Origin: Chitinophagales bacterium
GTDB taxonomy: Bacteria > Bacteroidota > Bacteroidia > Chitinophagales > JADJOU01
Assembly: GCA_025455685.1 (NCBI GenBank)
Contig: JALOMB010000013.1
Coordinates: forward strand, 1 to 45,516
Direction of reading: 5' to 3'
Length of the DNA: 45,516 nucleotides
The notes below the pieces were generated by a model. The model saw nothing but the letters and a program-made list of their open reading frames with translations, was not told the DNA's origin and did no database searches. The translations under genes and the position numbers were made by a program. Shown here piece by piece: positions 18,467 through 34,094 of the stretch (position 1 is the first letter of the stretch; each line of letters starts with the position of its first letter).

Positions 18467-21400
18467 ATGAACGTGAAGCCAAGTCGTAATTTTTTAAAGT
18501 ATTTAACAACATGTTTTTGGGTTGTTTTTGGGTTTAATTCCTTGATGGCACAAGGAGACATTCAAGGTCAAGTCAAGGATGGTAATGGAAATCCTGTTGG
18601 TTTTATCTATGTAGTAGTCGTCGAAGATCCAAATTCCAAAAAGAAAACTTCCAAAGGAGGAAGAACGGATAAAAATGGATTTTATTCTATCAAGAACCTG
18701 CAACCTGGTTCATATTACCTTATGGCTAAGAGCTTAAAAGCCGAGTCTATCGAAGAGGTAACGGTTTTGAGTGGGAGGACAGCGACACAGAACTTCGTCT
18801 TAGAAGAAAAAACTACGGTAATCAAAACCATAACCGTCAAAGCCAAAAAAGAAGGCGGCAAACCTAAGCTTTTCGATCTAACTACACCAAAACAAGAAGT
18901 AATCACAGCAAAAGAAATCAAAGAAAATTCTGTGAGAAATGTCAATGACTTAGTAGGCGCTACAGGTGGTTTGGTTCAAGAAGATTTTGGGTCTAGTATC
19001 AATGTAGGTGGTGCTAGAGATGATGCCAATGTGTATATCATCGATGGAGTCAAGCAAACTGGTTTGACCAATATTTCACCAAATTCAATTCAACAAATAG
19101 AAGTAATGACTTCAGGTGTACCTGCTAAATACGGCGACGTCACCGGAGGTGTGGTCAGTATCACGACCAAAGGCCCGTCGAGTAAATTCAAAGGAAATGC
19201 TGAGGTGCTTACTTCGCAATTTTTAGATCCTTTTGGCTATACGAATGCCAATGTAAACCTCACGGGTCCGATAGCATGGTTCAAAGATATCAATGAAGAA
19301 ACTAAAAAAGTAGAAAAAGGCGATGTCAGATTAGGGTATTCTTTTAACCTAGAATTTCAACATGAAAAAGATAGATTTCCATCCTACCAAGGCTCTTGGA
19401 AAATTCGAGATTCGGCTTTTAGAGCCATCGAAAATTCTCCTTATCTCCTCGCAGAAGACGGCAATACCATAATCCTAAGACAAGAATTACTCAGAACAAA
19501 AGATTTCGAAAGGATATCTGCGAGACAAAATACTTCTGGCAATATTTTAAGACTCAATACTAAGCTCGACTTCAAAGTCAATCAAAAAGGAACAAATCTA
19601 ACCCTTGGCGTTATTGCTATCGGTGATAGATACAGAGACTTCATCAATCGATATGCTTTGCTCAATTTCGAGAATAATCCTGTAGTACAAAACACCTCTA
19701 TCAATGGTTTTCTTAGGCTCTATCATCCTCTGTCTAATAAAGACTCCCAAGTCAATAAACAAATACGAGATGCGAATTTAACCCTTCAATTTGATTATAG
19801 TAGAAATTACAATGAAGTTTATTCTCATACCAATGGCACTAATCCTTTTAATTACGGTTATGTAGGGAAATTTGAAGAAATTACTGACCTCAATGTACAG
19901 TCTCCAGAGAATAGACAAAGAGGATTTGATACAACGTCAATTTATTTTGCACCAGATGAATTTCTCAGACTACCTGCGCCACAAATTGTTTTAGGAAGAG
20001 TTTCAAAAGACATTCGATTTACACCGGGCACCGTTAATCCGATAATGTCCAATTTGACCAATGAGTTCATCAATCTATTGAGAGCTAATCCAAGTTTGGG
20101 CAACCACACTACAAATATGATCGCACTTCAGGCTAGAGGAGCTATAGTCAATGGAACAAGAGCGAACGACAATTTGCATGGTTTGTTCTTTCCGTATGGA
20201 AGAACTTATGGTGGATTTAATAATGCCTTGGAACAGCAGTTTCGTTTGACAGGTAATATCAACTTTGATTTTTATCCAAAAAATGCAAAAGGATTTAATA
20301 AACATACTATTGAAGCTGGTTTCGAAGTAGAACAAAGGATCAATGCCTTTTATGCTCATAACCCGATTTCTATATGGCAAGTCGCTCAAAACTCCGCTAA
20401 TGCTCATCTCGTACAAGACATTAAAAGAAATTATAACCCACTTTTGGTCATGCAAAATGGTACCGTAAGAATGAGATTAAATGAATATCTCAATCAAAGT
20501 GATGTCGTCTTTCAGCCTTTGGACTCTATATATTATGACAAGGAAGTCTCCAATGGCAATCAATCTGAATTTTCTAGAAATCTCAGAGCATCATTAGGTT
20601 TAGATTCCCTTACTCGAATTAATGTCAATGAACTCAATCCAAATCAAATGAATGTCGGCATGTTTTCAGCTGATGCCTTGCTCACTTCAGATGCCTCTCC
20701 AATATTTACTGGATATGACTTCAAAGGAAATTTAGTGCCTTTTGGGACCACTTTCAATGATTTCTTTACGGAAAGAGACGCTAGAGGTAATTTCACGAGA
20801 AAAGTTGCGCCGTTTACTCCGACGTATATCGCAGGATATATTCAAGACAAATTCCAGCTCAAAGACATCAATTTCAATATAGGTCTTCGCGTAGATTACT
20901 TTAATTCCAATCAAAAAGTACTTCGAGATCCTTATGTCCTAAATGGCGTAAGAACCCTTTCTCAGGTAGATGGTAAACTCAACCCACTCGGAAGACATCC
21001 AACGAATGTAGGTGATGCCGCAGTCTATACCAATAATATTACCAACCCTACAGCCATAACAGGATATCGTCTAGGTAACCAATGGTATGATGTCAATGGA
21101 GATCCGTTGCCAAATGCTCAAACTGTCTTAGATAATTCTGGAGGGCAAATCAAACCTTATTTGGTAGGAGATAATGATGAGGAAAGAGCCAAAAACAATA
21201 TTACCTCAGCAACCTTCGATCCAGATAGAATCTTTAGAAATACCAATGCACAGATCAATATCATGCCTAGAATTAATTTCACCTTTACGATTAATGAGAA
21301 TTCCATGTTTTTCTCACATTTTGACGTTCTTACTCAGCGTCCTAATGAAGGAACACTTTTGGCAAATCCACTTGCTTATTATAGAGTATTTGGTCTAAGA

Positions 21401-22381
21401 CAAGGTACTTTTATCAATAATCCTGATTTGCTCACACCTAGAACCGTAGATTTAGAGTTTGGTTTCAAACAAAAACTCAATGACCGCTCCGCCCTTACCA
21501 TTAATTTCACCTATAAAGAATATCAGAATCAATTACAAATTACCCGATTAATCGGAGCTTATCCCTTTGATTATTTAACTTTTGCTAATACGGACTTTTC
21601 TACAGTCAAGGCGATGGTATTGAGTTATGATTTGAGAAGAGGGCAGACGAATTTCAGAATGAAGGCCAACTATACCATGCAATTTGCCGAAGGTACAGGA
21701 AGCTCTCAGACTTCTCAGCTCAATCTAATTAACTCTGGTCAAGGAGCTATCAAAACGATTTATCCCCTAAACTTCGATGTGCGTCATAATTTCAACTTAA
21801 ACTTAAATTATAGATTCTCAGATGAAGATGATTATAGAGGCCCTGCTAAACTTAGAAAATATCTAGAAAACTCAGGTATAGATATCAATGCAAATCTACG
21901 TTCAGGTACGCCTTTTACCTTACAATCCAATGTCACTCCGGATGCTAATATCTCGTCTGTACTCAGAGGAATCACCCTCGGAGATATTAACTCTGCTTCT
22001 AAGCCTTGGCGTTATAATGTAAACTTGAAGATAGACAAAGATTTCAAATTGAAATTTGGTACCATCAAAACCGATTCAACGCAAAAAGGTGCTCAAGATA
22101 CCCGAAAAGTAGTACCACTCAATGTGTATTTGCAAGTGACTAATTTACTCAATACTGAAAATATATTAGAGGTCTATCGATTTACGGGCTCTCCCTATAC
22201 TGATGGATACCTCAATTCTGATTTAGCAGCAAATGAGTTCACGACCAAAGAGCTCATCAATCGAGGCTACGGTCAGTCGTTTAGAGATTTGTATCGTATC
22301 GCTTTAGAGATTCCTAATGATAGAAATTCTTATTTTGCTAGACCTAGGATTATTCAGCTTGGGGCTTCTATATCCTTTTAA
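18467..22381 (+). CDS. TonB-dependent receptor with carboxypeptidase-regulatory-like N-terminal domain
   Basis: QGDIQGQVKDGNGNPVGFIYVVV...GFYSIKNLQPGSYYL; plug VNDLVGATGGLVQEDFGSSINVGGARDDANVYIIDGVKQTGL...GVPAKYGDVTGGVVSITTKG; barrel ends with F. Confidence 0.93.
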   Translation: MNVKPSRNFLKYLTTCFWVVFGFNSLMAQGDIQGQVKDGNGNPVGFIYVVVVEDPNSKKKTSKGGRTDKNGFYSIKNLQPGSYYLMAKSLKAESIEEVTVLSGRTATQNFVLEEKTTVIKTITVKAKKEGGKPKLFDLTTPKQEVITAKEIKENSVRNVNDLVGATGGLVQEDFGSSINVGGARDDANVYIIDGVKQTGLTNISPNSIQQIEVMTSGVPAKYGDVTGGVVSITTKGPSSKFKGNAEVLTSQFLDPFGYTNANVNLTGPIAWFKDINEETKKVEKGDVRLGYSFNLEFQHEKDRFPSYQGSWKIRDSAFRAIENSPYLLAEDGNTIILRQELLRTKDFERISARQNTSGNILRLNTKLDFKVNQKGTNLTLGVIAIGDRYRDFINRYALLNFENNPVVQNTSINGFLRLYHPLSNKDSQVNKQIRDANLTLQFDYSRNYNEVYSHTNGTNPFNYGYVGKFEEITDLNVQSPENRQRGFDTTSIYFAPDEFLRLPAPQIVLGRVSKDIRFTPGTVNPIMSNLTNEFINLLRANPSLGNHTTNMIALQARGAIVNGTRANDNLHGLFFPYGRTYGGFNNALEQQFRLTGNINFDFYPKNAKGFNKHTIEAGFEVEQRINAFYAHNPISIWQVAQNSANAHLVQDIKRNYNPLLVMQNGTVRMRLNEYLNQSDVVFQPLDSIYYDKEVSNGNQSEFSRNLRASLGLDSLTRINVNELNPNQMNVGMFSADALLTSDASPIFTGYDFKGNLVPFGTTFNDFFTERDARGNFTRKVAPFTPTYIAGYIQDKFQLKDINFNIGLRVDYFNSNQKVLRDPYVLNGVRTLSQVDGKLNPLGRHPTNVGDAAVYTNNITNPTAITGYRLGNQWYDVNGDPLPNAQTVLDNSGGQIKPYLVGDNDEERAKNNITSATFDPDRIFRNTNAQINIMPRINFTFTINENSMFFSHFDVLTQRPNEGTLLANPLAYYRVFGLRQGTFINNPDLLTPRTVDLEFGFKQKLNDRSALTINFTYKEYQNQLQITRLIGAYPFDYLTFANTDFSTVKAMVLSYDLRRGQTNFRMKANYTMQFAEGTGSSQTSQLNLINSGQGAIKTIYPLNFDVRHNFNLNLNYRFSDEDDYRGPAKLRKYLENSGIDINANLRSGTPFTLQSNVTPDANISSVLRGITLGDINSASKPWRYNVNLKIDKDFKLKFGTIKTDSTQKGAQDTRKVVPLNVYLQVTNLLNTENILEVYRFTGSPYTDGYLNSDLAANEFTTKELINRGYGQSFRDLYRIALEIPNDRNSYFARPRIIQLGASISF

Positions 22382-22407: not shown

Positions 22408-25400
22408 ATGAAAACAATACTATTAAACTCGAAAATCCTACAGAAAAGCTCTTTTGGGCTTGGATTTATCTTTTTTGTTTTCTTCGCTCAGGCTAGAGAA
22501 TCCGTTTCAGTGGATAAATCTAAGACCAATAATCCTCAAACTTTGACTCAGAGAGTAGGTGATTGTATCGCAGGTGCTGCGCAAACCGACCTCAATATCA
22601 ACAACGTAAGAGCCAGAATGCTCAATACAGGAGATATGTGGTGGGATAGAAATACCGCAAAATATGGGGTTCCTAAATTAACTCAAGATCAAATCAGAGC
22701 TGGATTTCAGCAAGTAAATGCGCTTTTTTCTGGGGCACTATGGATTTCAGGTTTGGATAATGCAGGTGCATTAAGAGTAGCCGCGCTTAGATTTAGTAGT
22801 AGTGGTGCAGATTTCTTCCCTGGTACGCTCAATAGTCAAAATTTAGGCGATATCAATCGTGCTAAATGTCTTCGATTTGATCAGCACTTCAATGTTTTTG
22901 GTAGTGAGATTAAGGAATTTATCGCTACGCAAGGCGGTACGGTCTCTGATAATATTAAATATTGGCCAGGTTTAGGAAATCCACATTTAATCAGTGACAA
23001 AGGATTTAATGAAAGTGATTTAAATGAAGTTTTAGCGCCATTTTATGATGCTAATGATGATGGAATTTATAATTATGAAGATGGTGATTATCCTTCGGTC
23101 AATCAAGTAAGTTCAGCAGAAAAACCTATTGGCGTCATAGCAGATCAAATGATTTTTTGGGTGACTAATGATTTTGGAAATCAACATACCAATTCTCAAG
23201 GAGCACCTTTATCAATTCAAATCAATAATCTAGCCTTTGCTTATGCGACTTCAGATGAGCTCAATAATATGACTTTTTATAAGTATGAAGTAATTAATAA
23301 ATCTGGTGTAAATTATAATCAAACTTATATCTCTCAATATGTAGATCCCGATATGGGAAATTATAACGATGACTACGTAGGTTGTGACACCACACATGCG
23401 GTAGGATATGTTTATAATGCGGATGCTATAGATGAAGATGTGACTCAAGCAAAAGGTTACGGAACGGAAAAAATTCCTGTAGTCGGAGTTGATTTCTTCC
23501 AAGGTCCAAAAGACGATATCACCAATCAACCTTTAGGTATGTCTTCGTTTGTGTATTTCGTAAATTCATCTGGTAATCCTCTGAGTGATCCAAGTACAGC
23601 TACAGAGTATAGAAATTTCCAAAGAGGAAATACCAGACAAGGAAATCCGATGACCTTAGGTGGAAATTGTACGGGGGGAACTGTGCCTACTAGATTTTGT
23701 TTTCCAGGAAATCCTGCAAATTCGACTGAGTGGTCCATGTGTTCTGCTGCAATTCCAAAAGGTGACGTTCGTTGGGTTCAGACCTCAGGACCGTTTACTT
23801 TCGAGACCGGCTCTGTAGAGGATGTCATTGTAGGCGTGGTTTTCGATAATTTTGCTCCATATGATGGATGTAAGGTAGATATCAATCGTTCTTTTCTCCC
23901 TGCTGACGAAAAAGCACAGCGTCTTTTCGATGCGAACTTTGAAAATATTGCAGGTCCAGATGCCCCTGAATTAACGATTATTTCAGGAGATGGGACATTG
24001 AATTTTAATATCAATAATATCAAGAATAATAATGTCTCTGAATCTTATAGCGTTTATTCCCCTCCTATTCCTAGAAAACCGTCTATCGTAGACTCTACTT
24101 ATAAATTCGAAGGGTATTTAATCTATCAGGTTTCTGACCCATCTAAAATTTCTACGATAAACGATTTGAGTAATCAAAATTTAGCGCGTCAAGTAAAAAA
24201 AATGGACGTTAGAAATTCAGTTTCAGGTATGGTATATAATCTTAGAGCAGACAGGACGAATCCTCTACAAATAGTTTTAATACCTTCATATTCCATAGAA
24301 TTAGATAATCGAGGAATCGAAAGAAATTTCTCTCTTCGAGAAGATTTATTTGAATCGGAAGGCAATAAATTTCTCGTTAATAACAAAACATATTACTACG
24401 CCGTAGTTGCTTTTGCCTACAATAACTATGTCGATGGGCAAGATGTACAGCTCGAGAAACTTAAATTTAGCCCTACCATCAAAATTTTTAGTGCCATTCC
24501 ACAGAAACTCGACGGATTTGTTCAGGGGACTCGTGCAAAATTTGGTGAAGAGCTTCCTATAAAGAGAATTCAAGGTTATGGTTCAGGAAGTTTTTATATA
24601 GAGCCGACCGATTCCTCAGTAGCGAAAATTATTCAAGATGGGTCTTTATTAGAGTTGGATTACCAAGCTGGCTTTGCACCAATAAAAGTAACTGTTGTTG
24701 ATCCGTTTCAATTAAAGAACCATGCTTTTAGATTACTCATCAATGATTCCTCTAAAGTTTCTAATTCTGATAGATTAAGAACAGACTCATCTTCTTGGAC
24801 GCTTGAAGTACTCGATGATAATAATGACGTCGTAGAGACGATTTATTCAGAAAGAAATATCTCAAGACCTTTTACGCAGACTATAGTTTCTAATTCAAAT
24901 AATGTTCAAAAAAGATATGGTCTGTCTATTTCCGTTCCTATAGCAGATTCTTTGGCTGGTTATCGTTCTAATTCAAATCCAGTTTATGGCGTGCATAGTG
25001 CGACAATTGAATATGAAGATAACCTAAATAAATGGTTTTATCTCTTCAAAGATGAAGATCGTACAAATTATAATTGGATTCGTGCCGGTCAATCTTACAA
25101 TAACTTCTTTACTTCGCATTCTAGCTTCAATAGAGTAGGAAATACCATAGTTTATTCTGACCCTACTTCTAAATTTGAAGGTATTTTGGATAAAGGTCTT
25201 GCGCCTTATTGCCTCACCGCTAATAGCTCTATAACAGAAATACCAGCTGGAAGTGGAAGAGACAATCCACTTGCAGATGCTTTGTTTACTTCGTTTGGTC
25301 CTGGTTTTAAATGGCGCTATGTGACTTCGAGATATCTTGATTCAGCGCGTTTTGAAGGGCCTGAAAACAATTTAGATTCTTTGATTAGCTTTAATTTGGT

Positions 25401-26442
25401 CATTACACCAGATAAAAACAAATGGTCTCAATGTGTCGTGCTCGAAACAGGTGAGTTTGCAACCTCTAATATAGGAGGTGCGCGAAAAGGTCAAATCAGA
25501 CAAAGTGAATCTGTCGATGCCGACGGCAATATCATACCAGGTGAGATAGGACGTGGATATTTTCCTGGCTATGCTATAAATGTAGAGACTGGAGAACGAG
25601 TTAATGTCTATTTTGGTGAAAATTCCTCTATTGTAGGTACCTATGGTGCTAATATGAAATGGGATCCATCACGCGATACCATTACGCCTCAAGGTGTTGC
25701 TTTGCTCGGAGGTAGTCATTTCGTTTACATTACCAATTCTCGCTATGATGGAGGACAAAAAGACCAACAAATTCTTGTAGATAATTTTAATAAAACCTCT
25801 GGTACCGGACGCGATGAAATTCTAAATCCTGCAGTAGCTCAAGTTTATAAGTCTTTTGCTTGGACCTTTATTCCTATTTTAAATAGAAATCTCGATATTT
25901 ATAATGATAATGGCGTCTATACCATACCGAGTAAAGTAAGTATAAAAGTCCGTGTTTCTAAACCATTTACTGCCTATGATGGAAATTCACCAGTAAACGA
26001 CAAAACACTTATTTATGGTTTTGATACCAGAAACCTCACCTCACAAAAGAAATCTAATGATGCTTTATCAGAAGCATTTCAATCGATGAAAGTGGTTCCT
26101 AATCCATACAATGCTTATTCTATCTATGAGAATACACCAATACAGAATTTAGTAAAAATTGTAGGTGTCCCTGATCAATGTAAAATCTCAATTTATACCA
26201 TAGATGGTGTATTGGTTCGCACTCTTTCACGTGATTACCAAGAGAGTTTAAATCAAATTTATGCAGTAGATGTAAGTGGTGGAAAAGCCAGTACTGAAAA
26301 CGCTATAACTTGGGATTTGAGAACAAATGCAGGTGTACTCATATCTTCAGGTGTCTATAATGTCTTGGTAGAAAGTGCCTATGGAACTAAGAATCTTAAA
26401 TTCTTCTGTACCATGAGATCTCCTGATGTATCAAATTTTTAA
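22408..26442 (+). CDS. Large secreted surface protein with T9SS/FlgD-like C-terminal domain
   Basis: Signal peptide; NNVRARMLNTGDMWWDRNTAKYGVPK and ALFSGALWISGLDNAGALRVAALRF; C-terminal VVPNPYNAYS...CKISIYTIDGVLVRTLSR...ITWDLRTNAGVLISSGVYNVLVES. Confidence 0.75.
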   Translation: MKTILLNSKILQKSSFGLGFIFFVFFAQARESVSVDKSKTNNPQTLTQRVGDCIAGAAQTDLNINNVRARMLNTGDMWWDRNTAKYGVPKLTQDQIRAGFQQVNALFSGALWISGLDNAGALRVAALRFSSSGADFFPGTLNSQNLGDINRAKCLRFDQHFNVFGSEIKEFIATQGGTVSDNIKYWPGLGNPHLISDKGFNESDLNEVLAPFYDANDDGIYNYEDGDYPSVNQVSSAEKPIGVIADQMIFWVTNDFGNQHTNSQGAPLSIQINNLAFAYATSDELNNMTFYKYEVINKSGVNYNQTYISQYVDPDMGNYNDDYVGCDTTHAVGYVYNADAIDEDVTQAKGYGTEKIPVVGVDFFQGPKDDITNQPLGMSSFVYFVNSSGNPLSDPSTATEYRNFQRGNTRQGNPMTLGGNCTGGTVPTRFCFPGNPANSTEWSMCSAAIPKGDVRWVQTSGPFTFETGSVEDVIVGVVFDNFAPYDGCKVDINRSFLPADEKAQRLFDANFENIAGPDAPELTIISGDGTLNFNINNIKNNNVSESYSVYSPPIPRKPSIVDSTYKFEGYLIYQVSDPSKISTINDLSNQNLARQVKKMDVRNSVSGMVYNLRADRTNPLQIVLIPSYSIELDNRGIERNFSLREDLFESEGNKFLVNNKTYYYAVVAFAYNNYVDGQDVQLEKLKFSPTIKIFSAIPQKLDGFVQGTRAKFGEELPIKRIQGYGSGSFYIEPTDSSVAKIIQDGSLLELDYQAGFAPIKVTVVDPFQLKNHAFRLLINDSSKVSNSDRLRTDSSSWTLEVLDDNNDVVETIYSERNISRPFTQTIVSNSNNVQKRYGLSISVPIADSLAGYRSNSNPVYGVHSATIEYEDNLNKWFYLFKDEDRTNYNWIRAGQSYNNFFTSHSSFNRVGNTIVYSDPTSKFEGILDKGLAPYCLTANSSITEIPAGSGRDNPLADALFTSFGPGFKWRYVTSRYLDSARFEGPENNLDSLISFNLVITPDKNKWSQCVVLETGEFATSNIGGARKGQIRQSESVDADGNIIPGEIGRGYFPGYAINVETGERVNVYFGENSSIVGTYGANMKWDPSRDTITPQGVALLGGSHFVYITNSRYDGGQKDQQILVDNFNKTSGTGRDEILNPAVAQVYKSFAWTFIPILNRNLDIYNDNGVYTIPSKVSIKVRVSKPFTAYDGNSPVNDKTLIYGFDTRNLTSQKKSNDALSEAFQSMKVVPNPYNAYSIYENTPIQNLVKIVGVPDQCKISIYTIDGVLVRTLSRDYQESLNQIYAVDVSGGKASTENAITWDLRTNAGVLISSGVYNVLVESAYGTKNLKFFCTMRSPDVSNF

Positions 26443-26481: not shown

Positions 26482-28623
26482 ATGTTTAAAAAATTGTTTT
26501 TTGGCGTATTTTTATCAATTAGTCTGAGTTTATTTGCTGGTAATTCAGATAGAGCAGGACAGGCAGGTGCTTATGAACTGCTTATGAATCCTCAAGCACG
26601 TACTATGGGTATGTTTGGTATCAATTCAGCTTCGGTCAGAAGTGTAGATGCCTTTGGCTCAAATATAGCTGGATTGGCCTTTACTAAAAATATAGCTGTA
26701 AATGCGAATTATACCTCATGGCTCACAGGCTCCAATACCGGTATAATCAATATAGGTGTAGGCGGAGAAGTCTCTAAAAACAATGTTTTAGGCTTTCATA
26801 TCAATTATTTAGATCTCGGCAATATAGATATCACAACTACTGCAGGAGGGACACAAGTCTTAGGACAGGTAACCCCTTTCTTCATGAATCTTGGCTTGAG
26901 CTATGCTCGTAGATTTAGTCAGTATGTCAGTGCAGGTATGACGATGAAGATGATTACCGAAGGTATAAGCAATATTGGAGCGACAGGGGTAGCCCTTGAT
27001 GCAGGATTGCAATACACGACAGGCGAGAAGAATGATATTCATTTTGGTGTGTTTTTGAGAAATTTAGGTTTTCCAATGGTTTATAGTGGTGATGGTCTAA
27101 CCTATAAACGTCCACCTTCTTCAGGTTCAGGCTATGAATTACCCTTTAATCAACGTCCGGCAAAATTTGAATTGCCAACTCAGTTTTCTATAGCCGTTAC
27201 CAAAGATTTTTATTTTGGTACGACACCCGAAAAAGGATCTGGGTTTTGTAATCCTCAGCATAGACTCTCTGTATCAGCTAATTTCCTGTATAATGCCTTT
27301 GGAAAAGACAATTTTGGATTAGGTGCAGAATATGGATTTCAAGAAAGATTTATGATTAGGTTAGGTTATTTGTATGAAGACCAACCAATTGGTGATGCCT
27401 CTACACGAGCTCATTTAGGTTTAGCAGCCGGAGTTTCAGCAGACATATCCCCTTCAAAAGATATTAAAAATGGTCGTAAAGTCTTAGAGATTTCCTATAA
27501 TTATAGACCATCTAGAGTATTTATGGGATCACATAATGTAGGTTTGGCCTTCCACTTCAACAAATACAACCCTTGTGATGTATTTGAATCAGCTAAAAAA
27601 GTAGCAGAAGAAATCAAAGATGCCGATGATAAAGCAAAAGATAAAGCAAAAGATAAACCGAGTGATAAGCCAAAAGAGATAATAATTCGAGATACCGTAA
27701 TTATTGACAAAACACCTCAAACTGAAACCCAAGTCAAAGAAATTAACACAGTTTTAAAAGGATTTTCTAATAAAATTAACTTTAAACTCGCTTCAAATGA
27801 GCTTAATGAAAGATCAAAAGGCGTTCTAGATGTAGTAGGAGATATCATGAATAACTATCCTAATGAGCGTTTTGGCATAGAAGGACATACAGATGAAATG
27901 GGTACCGCAGAAAATAATATGAAATTATCTATGAGAAGAGCTTATGCAGTAGCGGATTATCTAATCGATGTCAAAAAAGTAAATCCAAAAAGTATTGTAG
28001 TCGATTATTTCGGAGAAGAAAGACCTATCGCGGATAATAATTCAGAAGAAGGTAGAAAACTCAATCGAAGAACAGAGATTTTCATTATTAGTAAATCTAG
28101 TAATTCATCTTCGAATAAAACAGAAGTCAAAACAGTTAATAATCCGATTAGGACTAAACCTAATCTTCAACCTACTAAACAAGTGGATAAGCCATCAAGT
28201 GATTTGACGCCAAAAGAATCGGATAATATTCCAAAAGTACCAACGGCTAAAATTTCTGAAACCAAAGAAGAAAATGAAAACCCTTTAGCAGATTTTGCCT
28301 CGACTATTAAGTTTAAAGCAGGCAATGACTCTTTGTTAATTTTTTCTGTTCGAAATATCAAAAAACTCTCAGATTATTTGAAATCTTTCCCAGGAAAAGT
28401 ACTCATGATTTCGGCACATACTGATAATAGCAAATATGCTATAGACAATATGACTTTGTCAAGAATGAGAGCGGAAGCAGTCAAAAAAGAATTAATGGCT
28501 AATGGAATAGACGAAAAGTTCTTGAAGATAGAATTTTTCGGAGATACCCAACCAAGAGATGCCTCAAATACAGAGGATGCACAAATTCTTAATCGAAGAG
28601 TTGAGTTAAGGTTTTTAAATTAG
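26482..28623 (+). CDS. PorV/PorQ-family outer-membrane protein fused to two C-terminal OmpA-like domains
   Basis: N-terminal GAYELLMNPQARTMGMFGINSASVRSVDAFGSNIAGLAF (PorV-like); OmpA motifs GHTDEMGTAENNMKLSMRRAYAVADYL...LNRRTEIFI and AHTDNSKYAIDNMTLSRMRAEAVKKEL...LNRRVELRF. Confidence 0.85.
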   Translation: MFKKLFFGVFLSISLSLFAGNSDRAGQAGAYELLMNPQARTMGMFGINSASVRSVDAFGSNIAGLAFTKNIAVNANYTSWLTGSNTGIINIGVGGEVSKNNVLGFHINYLDLGNIDITTTAGGTQVLGQVTPFFMNLGLSYARRFSQYVSAGMTMKMITEGISNIGATGVALDAGLQYTTGEKNDIHFGVFLRNLGFPMVYSGDGLTYKRPPSSGSGYELPFNQRPAKFELPTQFSIAVTKDFYFGTTPEKGSGFCNPQHRLSVSANFLYNAFGKDNFGLGAEYGFQERFMIRLGYLYEDQPIGDASTRAHLGLAAGVSADISPSKDIKNGRKVLEISYNYRPSRVFMGSHNVGLAFHFNKYNPCDVFESAKKVAEEIKDADDKAKDKAKDKPSDKPKEIIIRDTVIIDKTPQTETQVKEINTVLKGFSNKINFKLASNELNERSKGVLDVVGDIMNNYPNERFGIEGHTDEMGTAENNMKLSMRRAYAVADYLIDVKKVNPKSIVVDYFGEERPIADNNSEEGRKLNRRTEIFIISKSSNSSSNKTEVKTVNNPIRTKPNLQPTKQVDKPSSDLTPKESDNIPKVPTAKISETKEENENPLADFASTIKFKAGNDSLLIFSVRNIKKLSDYLKSFPGKVLMISAHTDNSKYAIDNMTLSRMRAEAVKKELMANGIDEKFLKIEFFGDTQPRDASNTEDAQILNRRVELRFLN

Positions 28624-28811: not shown

Positions 28812-29279
28812 ATGACGGTATTTTTATCAAAAGAAAGTTATGAAAAATTCAAAAGCGAGCTAATTTATCTCAAAACAGAAGGTCGTAAAGCCACAGGTGA
28901 TGCTTTAGCTGAAGCAAGAGAAAAAGGTGATTTGAGTGAAAATGCTGAATATGATGCAGCTAAAGAAGACCACGCTAAATTAGAAAAGAAAATTGCAGCT
29001 TTAGAACATGCGCTTCTCGACGTAAGAATTTTGGAAGATCATGAAATAGATACTTCTACAGTGACTATTCTCACCAAAGTAAAAGTTTTCAATGAAAAGC
29101 TCAATAAAGATATTGAGTACCAGATCGTTTCTGAGATTGAGTCAGATTTCAAAGAAAGAAGACTATCAGTGACTTCTCCAATAGGTAAGGGTTTACTCGG
29201 TAAAAAAGTAGGTGACATAGTGGAGATTAGTACCCCTGCAGGCATGATGAAATATAAAATTCTAGAGATTTCTAAATAA
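28812..29279 (+). CDS. greA: Transcription elongation factor GreA
   Basis: EAREKGDLSENAEYDAAKEDHAKLEKKIAALE and SPIGKGLLGKKVGDIVEISTPAG. Confidence 0.97.
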   Translation: MTVFLSKESYEKFKSELIYLKTEGRKATGDALAEAREKGDLSENAEYDAAKEDHAKLEKKIAALEHALLDVRILEDHEIDTSTVTILTKVKVFNEKLNKDIEYQIVSEIESDFKERRLSVTSPIGKGLLGKKVGDIVEISTPAGMMKYKILEISK

Positions 29280-29280
29280 A

Positions 29281-29679
29281 ATGGCGAGTATATTTTCTAA
29301 GATTATTAGAGGAGAGCTTCCTGCTTATAAGATATACGAGGATAATGATTTCATCGCGTTCTTAGATATTCAACCTTTGGTTTTGGGACATACCTTATTG
29401 GTGCCTAAACTAGAAATTGATAAAATTTGGGATTTACCAAGTGATATACTAAGTCGCTATATGCCTATAGCACAGCAGATATCTGCCGCAATTGATAAGG
29501 CTTGCCCTTGTTCAAGAGTAGGTGTGGTAGTTATGGGATTGGAGGTTCCCCATGCTCACATGCATTTAATACCGATGAACCACCCTAATGATTTAGATTT
29601 CAGACGTCCTAAATTGTCTTTGAATCAAGAAGAAATGACTGAAATTCAACAAAAACTGATAAATTTATTACCAATATGA
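29281..29679 (+). CDS. HIT family protein
   Basis: SIFSKIIRGELPAYKIYEDNDFIAFLDIQPL and a histidine triad, VPHAHMHLIPM. Confidence 0.95.
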   Translation: MASIFSKIIRGELPAYKIYEDNDFIAFLDIQPLVLGHTLLVPKLEIDKIWDLPSDILSRYMPIAQQISAAIDKACPCSRVGVVVMGLEVPHAHMHLIPMNHPNDLDFRRPKLSLNQEEMTEIQQKLINLLPI

Positions 29680-30707: not shown

Positions 30708-33700
30708 TCAAAAGCTTGCACCAAACTCTAAATTCATAGATTGAATATATCTTTTGTTGATTTGATTGTATCGCCCTTGATAAATTAAATTTAAACTAAG
30801 CAATTTTCCTAAACTTTGGTTTATATTCATTTGAGCCACGATATTTTCTCCTCTATCCAAGCCATTGAGCATGCTTAACTCGACTTGTGGATTTTGGATA
30901 TTATATTGATAATCTGCTTTAATCCATTTAAGTTGCGCATCAATAAGTAATTTCTTAATCGTCCATTTTAGCCCACTTCCTACATCCCATATAGGTACCC
31001 ATTGCTGCGATGTAGATTTAAAATTATATTTGATATTGATATTGGCGATTAAATTGTTTTTGATTTGACATTGAATTTGCTCTGAAATGGAATTGTCCAC
31101 CATAGAAAAATTTCTTTCATTAAAAAATTCTGAACTCTGATTTCTAAGTTGATGAACTACTTCCGTTGTGGTTTTAAATTGTCTATTAATAGAATTTCTC
31201 AGAGTAATTCCATAACTTTTTAAGGCATTTCCTTCTAGTCCATTTGTCAAAAGGTTCTTATAATCTAAGTAATTGTGATAGAGATTAAGAGATGTGTTTG
31301 GATTATTTTTCAAGACATGAATTTGATGCTGAAGATATACTCTAGATTCCATCAAATCTTCCTGTTCTAGCTTTCCTACAGGAGCTACGAATTCTCCAAA
31401 TGTTTTATCTATACTCGCTATAGTTTTTCTTTGGAAATCCACTAGGAGCGAGTACTCTATGTTGTTGAGCCATTTACCAAGTCTGTTATTTGAGTTATAG
31501 AGAAGTGCTCTAGGGGTAAAAGTATAATTTCCTTTGAAATTTACTTGATTTACAGGCACAAACTCTAGCAATGTCGTATAGAACTTGATATATTTATTTT
31601 CTAGGGCAAATTGAGAGACATAAGCTTCATCAAGTTCGAAAATCCCGTTTCCGTTCAAGTCATTCCATGCATACGTCCCTATTCCATTGACTGCTCGTAC
31701 ATAACTGAGTTGCGTAGCTTGTTCCCTACCGGCTTTGAGTTCATACTTTGAGTTCATAGTCATCAAGCCCTTCAAAATCTGACCTTGATGCGTAATCTGA
31801 CCTAAATAGTTGTGGTTTAATTCTGAGCCATATCTTACTTTATCATCGGTTTGGAGATTTCGATAACTGAGGTTCGCCGTGAATTGATTTTTCTTTAGCC
31901 CTGAATATTTTAAATTTGCTTCGATTTGATGCGCAGCCATAGAGTGCTTGTCTTTGTCGACATAGATGCCGTATTTCTCAAGCCTCAAGCCATAAGATAT
32001 ATCGTATTGAAAAGATTTGTATTTACTACTCTGTGATATTTTTATATCTTGCCAATAGAAACTTTCGGGTAGGGTTCCGGTATCATTATATCTTTTATTA
32101 AATTCAATTTTATGGCTTATTTCTAAGGATTTATTCGTATCGATAGCATAGCGCAACCGCTGAATTGGTCTATAAAACTGAATTTTCTGTACAGAATTTT
32201 CTGCAAGAAGCGTTCGTAAATCAAAATTATAGCGCCATTTTTTAGAAATTTCCCATTGCCCCCCTACAAAGTTTTCTAAGCCTCGATATCGACCGTAAAT
32301 CAATGCCTGAGATGTGTTCTCGATACGAAATTTTTCTTTTTGATACGAAATTTTTGCTTTGGTAATATTCATATGATGTTCATTTCTATTGAAGAATGGA
32401 AGATTCCAGTCTCGAGAAAATTCTAAACTTCTAAATCGCTGAATCGCTTCAAATTGTTTGCTTGAAAAGTCATTAGATAAATTAATTGTAATGGCTTTGC
32501 TTAAGGCTAAATCCAAAGTGTGGTATGCGGCAAATCCATGGTTTTTTTCATTGTCCAAAGCACTAAAAGTATTTGGGTCAATCGACGTATAACTTAGCTC
32601 CTGAGCGATCTTGGTCTTGTCATTTGGTCGAAAAGCTAAACCGGATATAGCCTGCAAACTGCTTTTGGGTGCAGGGATTAAAGATATGGGAGCGTAAGCA
32701 CCTTGTTTGATTCCATTTATAGGCGCTATAAATTGATACACGACACCATTAGCCGAAGATGAAGCAATACTATAATCTCCTTGATTTTCCCCTACGAAAG
32801 TAAAAACTGCAGAATAAGCCGAATCTGTTTTGCTCGTAGCCAAACGAAGAATATCCCTATAAGTTCTACCTAAAACCGTGGTATCGATTCGTCTGTAGAG
32901 CACTCTTGTCTCATCCCAAGTGGTTTTATTATAGTTCTGAATCAGGGCTAAATCTGTTTGATTTCCAATTTGCGATAGAAGACTTATGGCAGATGAGTCT
33001 AATTTGGTGTTAAGCGGTTGTGTTTTGACGTCGGATTCGAAAAAAACCTGATGATATGTCGACCAGTTTTTTTTCTCAAAACTTACATCCGTATATTGAA
33101 ACTCTACTACTAATCGCATGTCATGAGTGATCATTCTCTTATTGGTGAAGGTAATTTGTCCGATATTATAGTCTATAATATAGTCGTTGTTTTCTCCTCT
33201 TTTAAGCAAGACTCCATTCAGATATACTCGCTCTGTACCTGATATAATAATGAGAAAAACTTCGGCATTATTGCCTAATAATCTATAAGGACCTTGATTA
33301 TTTTCGACTACGGGCAAAACATTTCTAGCGAATACACCCCGAGTAATAGCTATAGAACCACCAAAAGTCAAAGAATTTTCTTTAGTTGTGTCTTGATATT
33401 GATATTGGAAGCCTTGGAGCTTTCTGTCGAAATGCAAATATCGAGAATTCTTGATTTGAGCAATGTCAAAATCACCAACATTTAAAGTATGTGGTTTTTT
33501 TTTGATTTGAATGAAAATTCGGTCAAACTCCTGAAGACTATATGAATTTCCATCAGCTTGAATCGGAATGTTTTGATCAGATATATTGGCTGAGACTTCT
33601 GTGCCGTTGGCGAGTTTGCCTCCTAGCGAGAAGTTCATGCCGCTTTGCAAAGAAGTAGAAATATTATTTCCTAGTGTCATCCCCCTGACGATAGAACCCT

Positions 33701-34094
33701 TATATACCAAGCCGCCTAAATCTAAAATGTCGTTTTGCTCTGAATTATTTCTCATAGTCGTATTTGTATCGACAGGGTTCAATCTATGAGTTGTTTTGGG
33801 AATTTCTAAGGGCAAAATTCGCCAATAAACTAATAAAGTATCGTGAACCGAATATGGAAAAACAATCTTATGAGTTTTTTGATCGTAAACAAAGCTGTAT
33901 TGTCTTTGAGGATGCGTAAGGCTTTTGATTTCAATGCTTTGTGGTATCACAAAATCTGCAGTGAGCCAAATGAATGAGTCATCAACGAAGATAACCTGAG
34001 ATTTTTTGTTAGAATAAGGACTCTGAGCTTCTACAGCACCAAGCCAAATCCAAAACACCAACCCCAAAAAAGCTCTAAAACATTTAAAAAACAT
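30708..34094 (-). CDS. Large predicted outer-membrane beta-barrel protein with SprA-like N-terminal motifs
   Basis: Signal peptide; SGTERVYLNGVLLKRGENNDYIIDYNIGQITFTNKRMI; long alternating beta-strand C-terminal half ending MNLEFGASF. Confidence 0.65.
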   Translation of the reverse strand: MFFKCFRAFLGLVFWIWLGAVEAQSPYSNKKSQVIFVDDSFIWLTADFVIPQSIEIKSLTHPQRQYSFVYDQKTHKIVFPYSVHDTLLVYWRILPLEIPKTTHRLNPVDTNTTMRNNSEQNDILDLGGLVYKGSIVRGMTLGNNISTSLQSGMNFSLGGKLANGTEVSANISDQNIPIQADGNSYSLQEFDRIFIQIKKKPHTLNVGDFDIAQIKNSRYLHFDRKLQGFQYQYQDTTKENSLTFGGSIAITRGVFARNVLPVVENNQGPYRLLGNNAEVFLIIISGTERVYLNGVLLKRGENNDYIIDYNIGQITFTNKRMITHDMRLVVEFQYTDVSFEKKNWSTYHQVFFESDVKTQPLNTKLDSSAISLLSQIGNQTDLALIQNYNKTTWDETRVLYRRIDTTVLGRTYRDILRLATSKTDSAYSAVFTFVGENQGDYSIASSSANGVVYQFIAPINGIKQGAYAPISLIPAPKSSLQAISGLAFRPNDKTKIAQELSYTSIDPNTFSALDNEKNHGFAAYHTLDLALSKAITINLSNDFSSKQFEAIQRFRSLEFSRDWNLPFFNRNEHHMNITKAKISYQKEKFRIENTSQALIYGRYRGLENFVGGQWEISKKWRYNFDLRTLLAENSVQKIQFYRPIQRLRYAIDTNKSLEISHKIEFNKRYNDTGTLPESFYWQDIKISQSSKYKSFQYDISYGLRLEKYGIYVDKDKHSMAAHQIEANLKYSGLKKNQFTANLSYRNLQTDDKVRYGSELNHNYLGQITHQGQILKGLMTMNSKYELKAGREQATQLSYVRAVNGIGTYAWNDLNGNGIFELDEAYVSQFALENKYIKFYTTLLEFVPVNQVNFKGNYTFTPRALLYNSNNRLGKWLNNIEYSLLVDFQRKTIASIDKTFGEFVAPVGKLEQEDLMESRVYLQHQIHVLKNNPNTSLNLYHNYLDYKNLLTNGLEGNALKSYGITLRNSINRQFKTTTEVVHQLRNQSSEFFNERNFSMVDNSISEQIQCQIKNNLIANINIKYNFKSTSQQWVPIWDVGSGLKWTIKKLLIDAQLKWIKADYQYNIQNPQVELSMLNGLDRGENIVAQMNINQSLGKLLSLNLIYQGRYNQINKRYIQSMNLEFGASF

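Follow-up and report, generated by a model that had tools for sequence, protein, structure and literature searches.

A PorV-family outer-membrane barrel carrying two OmpA-like domains, encoded next to a giant candidate surface protein in a Chitinophagales bacterium

PorP/SprF barrels hold type B substrates of the type IX secretion system (T9SS); in Porphyromonas gingivalis, PorE bridges the PorP barrel to peptidoglycan, and it has been proposed that non-mobile substrates are thereby tied to the wall via a PorE-PorP bridge (PMC9143113). The crystal structure of PorE shows how the wall is gripped, with Asp576, Asn584 and Arg591 holding diaminopimelate (PMC7192894). The C-terminal domain of PorZ is reported to stay uncleaved and bound to PorQ, a PorV-family barrel (PMC10202324). 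Here we describe a protein in which a PorV-family barrel and two OmpA domains form one chain. It is encoded in a 45,516-nucleotide stretch of DNA (the window, to which coordinates refer unless another contig is named) from a draft Chitinophagales genome, 86% complete in 161 contigs. The reading we prefer, and hold with somewhat better than even confidence, is that this protein carries and anchors one dedicated client, the giant encoded by the preceding gene. Through it, a large secreted surface protein is probably fastened to the cell wall.

The reading frame at 26482-28623 (forward strand, as are all its parts) runs from an ATG to a TAG stop without internal stops and encodes 713 aa. It begins with a signal peptide (about residues 1-20, ending in LSLFAG, by inspection; 26482-26541), followed by an AGN at the mature start that is conserved in all homologues. 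Next come a PorV/PorQ-family beta-barrel (residues 21-360; 26542-27561), a K/D-rich and mostly disordered linker (361-428; 27562-27765), an OmpA domain (429-536; 27766-28089), a disordered S/K/P/T-rich linker (537-603; 28090-28290) and a second OmpA domain (604-713; 28291-28620). The 70 residues 361-430 hold 14 K, 9 D and 6 E. An AlphaFold2 model from 13 sequences has barrel strands from residues 69 to 360, two separate OmpA folds and low-confidence linkers at 372-414 and 538-599; its mean pLDDT is 64, and therefore the relative placement of the domains is not reliable. Thus the order proposed by an earlier sequence-only reading, a barrel followed by a K/D-rich linker and two separate OmpA domains, is borne out by family models, composition and predicted structure. 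The fusion is no assembly accident, because four other genomes of the same family encode the full-length architecture, with about 48% identity when aligned over the entire length; in a fifth, at the edge of a contig, only the C-terminal half is present.

That reading had also called the barrel PorV-type, which is right at the level of the family and wrong for PorV itself. The family model NF033709 matches residues 32-359 with 123.3 bits (cut-off 90; 1.5e-35), but the barrel reaches only 67.4 of the 250 bits needed for the PorV equivalog (NF033710) and 67.1 of the 220 needed for PorQ (NF033711). The PorV2 equivalog (NF052325, cut-off 325) is absent among the 25 matches listed for the protein, and the PorP/SprF family PF11751 gives 16.7 bits against a gathering cut-off of 22.3. 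From the PorE set of lipoprotein, TPR, beta-propeller, carboxypeptidase-regulatory and OmpA parts, it has the OmpA part only. A match to some non-PorV family had been allowed for; domain and fold searches instead put the PorV family first. A PDB profile search with the barrel finds Flavobacterium johnsoniae PorV (6h3i) at 7e-15 and nothing comparable after it, with FadL-type channels at 0.045 or worse, and Foldseek with the fusion model returns PorV chains on top (8gl6_F ahead of 6h3i_F), followed by OmpA C-terminal domains and, after these, FadL. The barrel belongs to an orthologous group of PorV-family barrels that has no name, is conserved throughout the class and very seldom carries OmpA. 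Two barrels of the Bacteroidota BAM complex were considered and rejected as its identity. BamG is a FadL-type barrel universally conserved in Bacteroidota, and BamP is restricted to Flavobacteriaceae (PMC12611786). No copy of the barrel described here turned up in 93 of the 396 genomes of the class sample, and almost all of these are at least 90% complete; the barrel's PDB profile search, which finds PorV, found no BAM chains.

The window protein is not the PorV of this genome, which has a separate PorV, PorV2, PorQ-like protein and SprA. A search for a canonical porV, suggested earlier, located it on contig C1 (404 bits), adjoining porU (993 bits). The PorQ-like protein lies on contig C68 (177 bits versus the PorQ cut-off of 220), PorV2 on contig C160 (NF052325, 358.5 bits, cut-off 325) and SprA on contig C49 (2014 bits). 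The gene for PorV2 (L056:1418-2626, reverse strand) adjoins obgE. Four PorV-family members were found in the genome, the window barrel included, and it is the only one near no equivalog model.

Both C-terminal domains belong to the OmpA family by profile and by binding site. PF00691 matches the protein at 5e-37 in two stretches, which a genome search places at 27781-28068 and 28312-28596 with 78 and 56.9 bits (cut-off 27.2). Each domain keeps the Asp-Asn-Arg triad at the exact PorE spacing (+8, +15): Asp471 (27892-27894), Asn479 (27916-27918) and Arg486 (27937-27939) in OmpA1, and Asp648 (28423-28425), Asn656 (28447-28449) and Arg663 (28468-28470) in OmpA2, all on the forward strand. The motifs first pointed out in each domain are confirmed (HTD at 469 and 646, LSxxRA at 482 and 659, NRR at 528 and 704). 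With the triads intact, the view that both domains bind peptidoglycan gains support, and the barrel is likely fixed to the wall through them, as judged from these residues. A further suggestion, that AQILNRRVE in OmpA2 in place of RKLNRRTE signals divergence of the pair, fared less evenly, since that stretch lies outside the triad; OmpA2 has diverged all the same, as indicated by its long branch and by replacement of the triad Arg by Met, with Asp and Asn kept, in four sister-genus genomes (L035, L036, L037 and L038). The Arg is retained in a fifth (L039) and in the window, and the OmpA1 triad is intact in all sister-genus genomes compared. The OmpA domain tree has too few columns to settle two questions, whether OmpA1 and OmpA2 arose as tandem copies (support 65/31) and whether every fused OmpA domain goes back to a single source (p-AU 0.48).

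The barrel gene is the last of a conserved trio on one strand. Upstream of it lie a TonB-dependent-receptor-like protein of 1304 aa with CarboxypepD_reg and Plug domains (18467-22381, forward) and a giant protein of 1344 aa with an apparent Sec signal peptide (22408-26442, forward), separated by 26 bases from each other and by 39 bases between giant and barrel. In a scan of named genomes queried with the barrel alignment, whose loci include Chitinophagales, Saprospiraceae, Flavobacteriales and Bacteroidales, a giant (about 1,340 aa) is encoded upstream in the same direction in 76 of 80 barrel loci; in L166, which is among the 76, a further ORF separates giant and barrel. The remaining four loci begin no more than about 210 bases from the end of their contig. 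The neighbours of this architecture had been named as a point to look into, with no mention of either the giant or the TonB-receptor-like partner. Relatives from many families share the order KsgA, hydroxyacid dehydrogenase, TonB-receptor-like protein, giant, barrel, GreA, HIT. In the window, the GreA-like gene (an orthologue of which is downstream in 70 of 80 loci) lies at 28812-29279 and the HIT-family-like gene at 29281-29679, both forward; these two are probably not part of the function. In different orders alike they immediately follow the barrel, a stability of gene order that is unusual around genes for surface proteins. Further along, the reverse strand at 30708-34094 encodes a 1128-aa outer-membrane-like protein with no Pfam family above cut-off, a weak local SprA match (TIGR04189, 19.3 bits, 33096-33248) and an SprA-like repeat motif, VYLNGVLLKRGENNDYIIDYNIGQITF.

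Across the class, the barrel is present in 303 of 396 sampled genomes, nearly always in single copy. SprA occurs in 302 of these 303, and 11 of the 12 SprA-negative genomes are without the barrel. This co-occurrence is confounded by clade and is no independent proof of a T9SS role, because entire families are without the barrel whether or not they have SprA. In the sample, about 82 SprA-positive genomes do not carry it, and it is missing from the SprA-positive genomes of two families (f53 and f59).

No Pfam domain scores above cut-off in the four giants searched, the window copy included, and a family conserved class-wide with no Pfam domain in four members deserves its own model. Across homologues, conservation covers the final 120-130 residues, with the pattern VVPNPYYAYS.YE...VKITNLP..C....W.L.N.....ASG.Y.IHV...G....KWFG..RP.DL..F, and the window giant ends in an additional conserved tail, which reads KWFG.xRPxDLxxF in most homologues. 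At E<=0.1, the C-termini of all 45 homologues match the final part of the PorZ model, those of 39 the type A sorting-domain model TIGR04183 and those of 37 the PorU model. The window giant matches the PorZ model alone (E 1.2e-5, 23.9 bits, model end only) and, unlike those 39 homologues, has no TIGR04183 match at this threshold. Both its low PorZ score and the extra tail weigh against the carrier-and-anchor reading. An AlphaFold2 model of its last 240 residues (45 sequences, pLDDT 73.5) is closest in the PDB to PorZ (5m11, 1.6e-5) and PorU (6za2, 2e-4), with a chain of the T9SS NucA-substrate complex at rank 8. Profiles and modelled fold together mark residues about 1217-1344 (26056-26439, forward) as an Ig-like C-terminal sorting domain of the kind found on T9SS substrates.

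These features can be combined into a mechanism. The giant would pass through Sec first and then, by means of its C-terminal domain, through the SprA of the T9SS. The PorV-family barrel would take this domain from the translocon and keep it uncleaved at the outer surface, by analogy with PorQ, which keeps PorZ, and with the PorP/SprF-type barrels, which keep type B substrates. Retention on the barrel, and not release, is proposed because the PorZ domain stays uncleaved and binds PorQ. The TonB-receptor-like protein may be a third partner of the surface complex, as its constant place in the gene order suggests. In this lineage, the C-terminus of the barrel, expected in the periplasm from the topology of PorV and FadL, would run on through two flexible linkers, each leading into an OmpA domain. 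These domains, given their intact binding residues, would take hold of the stem peptides of peptidoglycan, and the complex would be held at the wall and not drift in the membrane.

The OmpA domains could also be the whole point of the protein, which would then staple the outer membrane to the wall as OmpA does, with the PorV-family barrel as a membrane anchor only and no T9SS traffic. Two domains with intact triads would suit this role, and many proteins of these genomes bear an OmpA domain, with 9-25 PF00691 matches in each genome. However, the barrel is 35-43% identical to its orthologues in other families, most of which lack OmpA and hold the same place in the trio, and therefore its own function is under constraint; besides, the genome already has ten PF00691 matches outside this ORF. 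We thus regard a staple as unlikely. The constrained barrel might instead serve T9SS in general, as a PorQ-like attachment subunit that ties the secretion or attachment complex to the wall for all cargo, comparable to PorE. The PorZ- and PorU-like domain of the giant fits such a subunit, as does the partial match of the PorQ model to the barrel and its orthologues (58-94 bits versus 220), but PorV, PorV2, a PorQ-like protein and PorU are already encoded in the genome, and the roughly 82 SprA-positive genomes without the barrel mean that T9SS does not need it. This explanation seems to us no better than the staple and, if anything, slightly worse.

Least probable in our judgement is an uptake complex, in which the giant would capture a ligand, hydrophobic or large, for import by a TonB receptor and a FadL-like barrel. 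The Plug domain of the first trio gene and the place of the FadL family as second structural neighbour of the barrel would agree with import, but the profile search puts PorV far ahead of FadL-type channels (7e-15 versus 0.045 or worse), and the giant bears a secretion-type C-terminal domain. A dedicated carrier and anchor for the giant accordingly remains our preferred reading.

Fusion to OmpA is rare: two domains are found in the family of the window genome and one in two other Chitinophagales families (f5 and f8). A search for the same architecture in the order, class and named-genome samples returned the two-OmpA form from a single family and orthologues mostly without OmpA elsewhere. Among 399 genomes of the order sample, 235 have the orthologous barrel and at least 17 have a barrel frame long enough for OmpA, namely five in the family of the window genome (two OmpA domains, 713-722 aa), ten in f8 and two in f5. 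The ten f5 and f8 fusions examined at full length, two of them from the named-genome scan and grouping with f8, have one OmpA domain each, and linker lengths differ between the two families. Six long frames outside Chitinophagales (G717, G748, G570, G509, G406 and G581) were rejected as fusions: their barrels stop without OmpA and the extra length is upstream sequence. Among the barrels listed elsewhere in the class, the long-framed ones that were examined end without OmpA.

In the barrel tree, the family of the window genome forms a clade with full support, the fused rows require four changes, and forcing all of them into one clade is rejected (p-AU 2e-128). The tree thus favours repeated gain of the fusion with at least one loss. 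That loss, a secondary loss of the wall anchor, is seen within the f8 group (L134:4572-5822): the ORF there terminates within the Lys-rich linker, GreA comes next and no OmpA is found downstream. An ancestral fusion lost many times is the less favoured history, for which this one visible loss can be cited. Wall anchoring is not essential to the trio, because the trio works without OmpA in most of the class. We put at about even chances the broader idea that the trio, with a giant bearing a retained PorZ-like domain, is a class-wide unnamed outer-membrane machine of most Bacteroidia that OmpA fusion bolted to the wall independently in several Chitinophagales lineages.

A search of open-licence papers found no description of the fusion or of the trio, which is weak evidence of novelty. 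If our reading is true, the fusion is a one-chain version of a carrier plus wall anchor so far described from separate proteins, PorP and PorE. It also draws attention to a trio whose barrel occurs in roughly three of every four Bacteroidia genomes sampled and for whose largest member there is no domain model. As a natural experiment, the fusion predicts a carrier meant to stay put, unlike PorV.

Compared with PorV and PorQ, the barrel is of the same family over its whole length, the PDB structure nearest to it in fold is PorV within a substrate-bound complex (8gl6), and its proposed hold on the giant would resemble that of PorQ on the C-terminal domain of PorZ; however, it falls below both equivalog cut-offs, PorV, PorV2 and the PorQ-like protein are separate genes here, and known PorV and PorQ have no OmpA domain. 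With OmpA, Pal and OprF it shares two full PF00691 domains, whose folds match structures of Capnocytophaga OmpA, OprF and Pal, but here they stand in tandem on a PorV-family barrel and not on an 8-strand barrel or a lipid. Another close system is PorE-PorP-PG1035 of P. gingivalis (PMC9143113), where, as we propose here, an outer-membrane barrel holds a T9SS substrate and is tied to peptidoglycan through OmpA, the Asp-Asn-Arg site being the same. There the barrel is of the PorP family and the OmpA part belongs to a second protein, PorE, a lipoprotein with TPR and propeller, and the substrate has a type B domain; here a PorV-family barrel and two OmpA domains make up one chain, and the giant ends in a PorZ/PorU-like domain.
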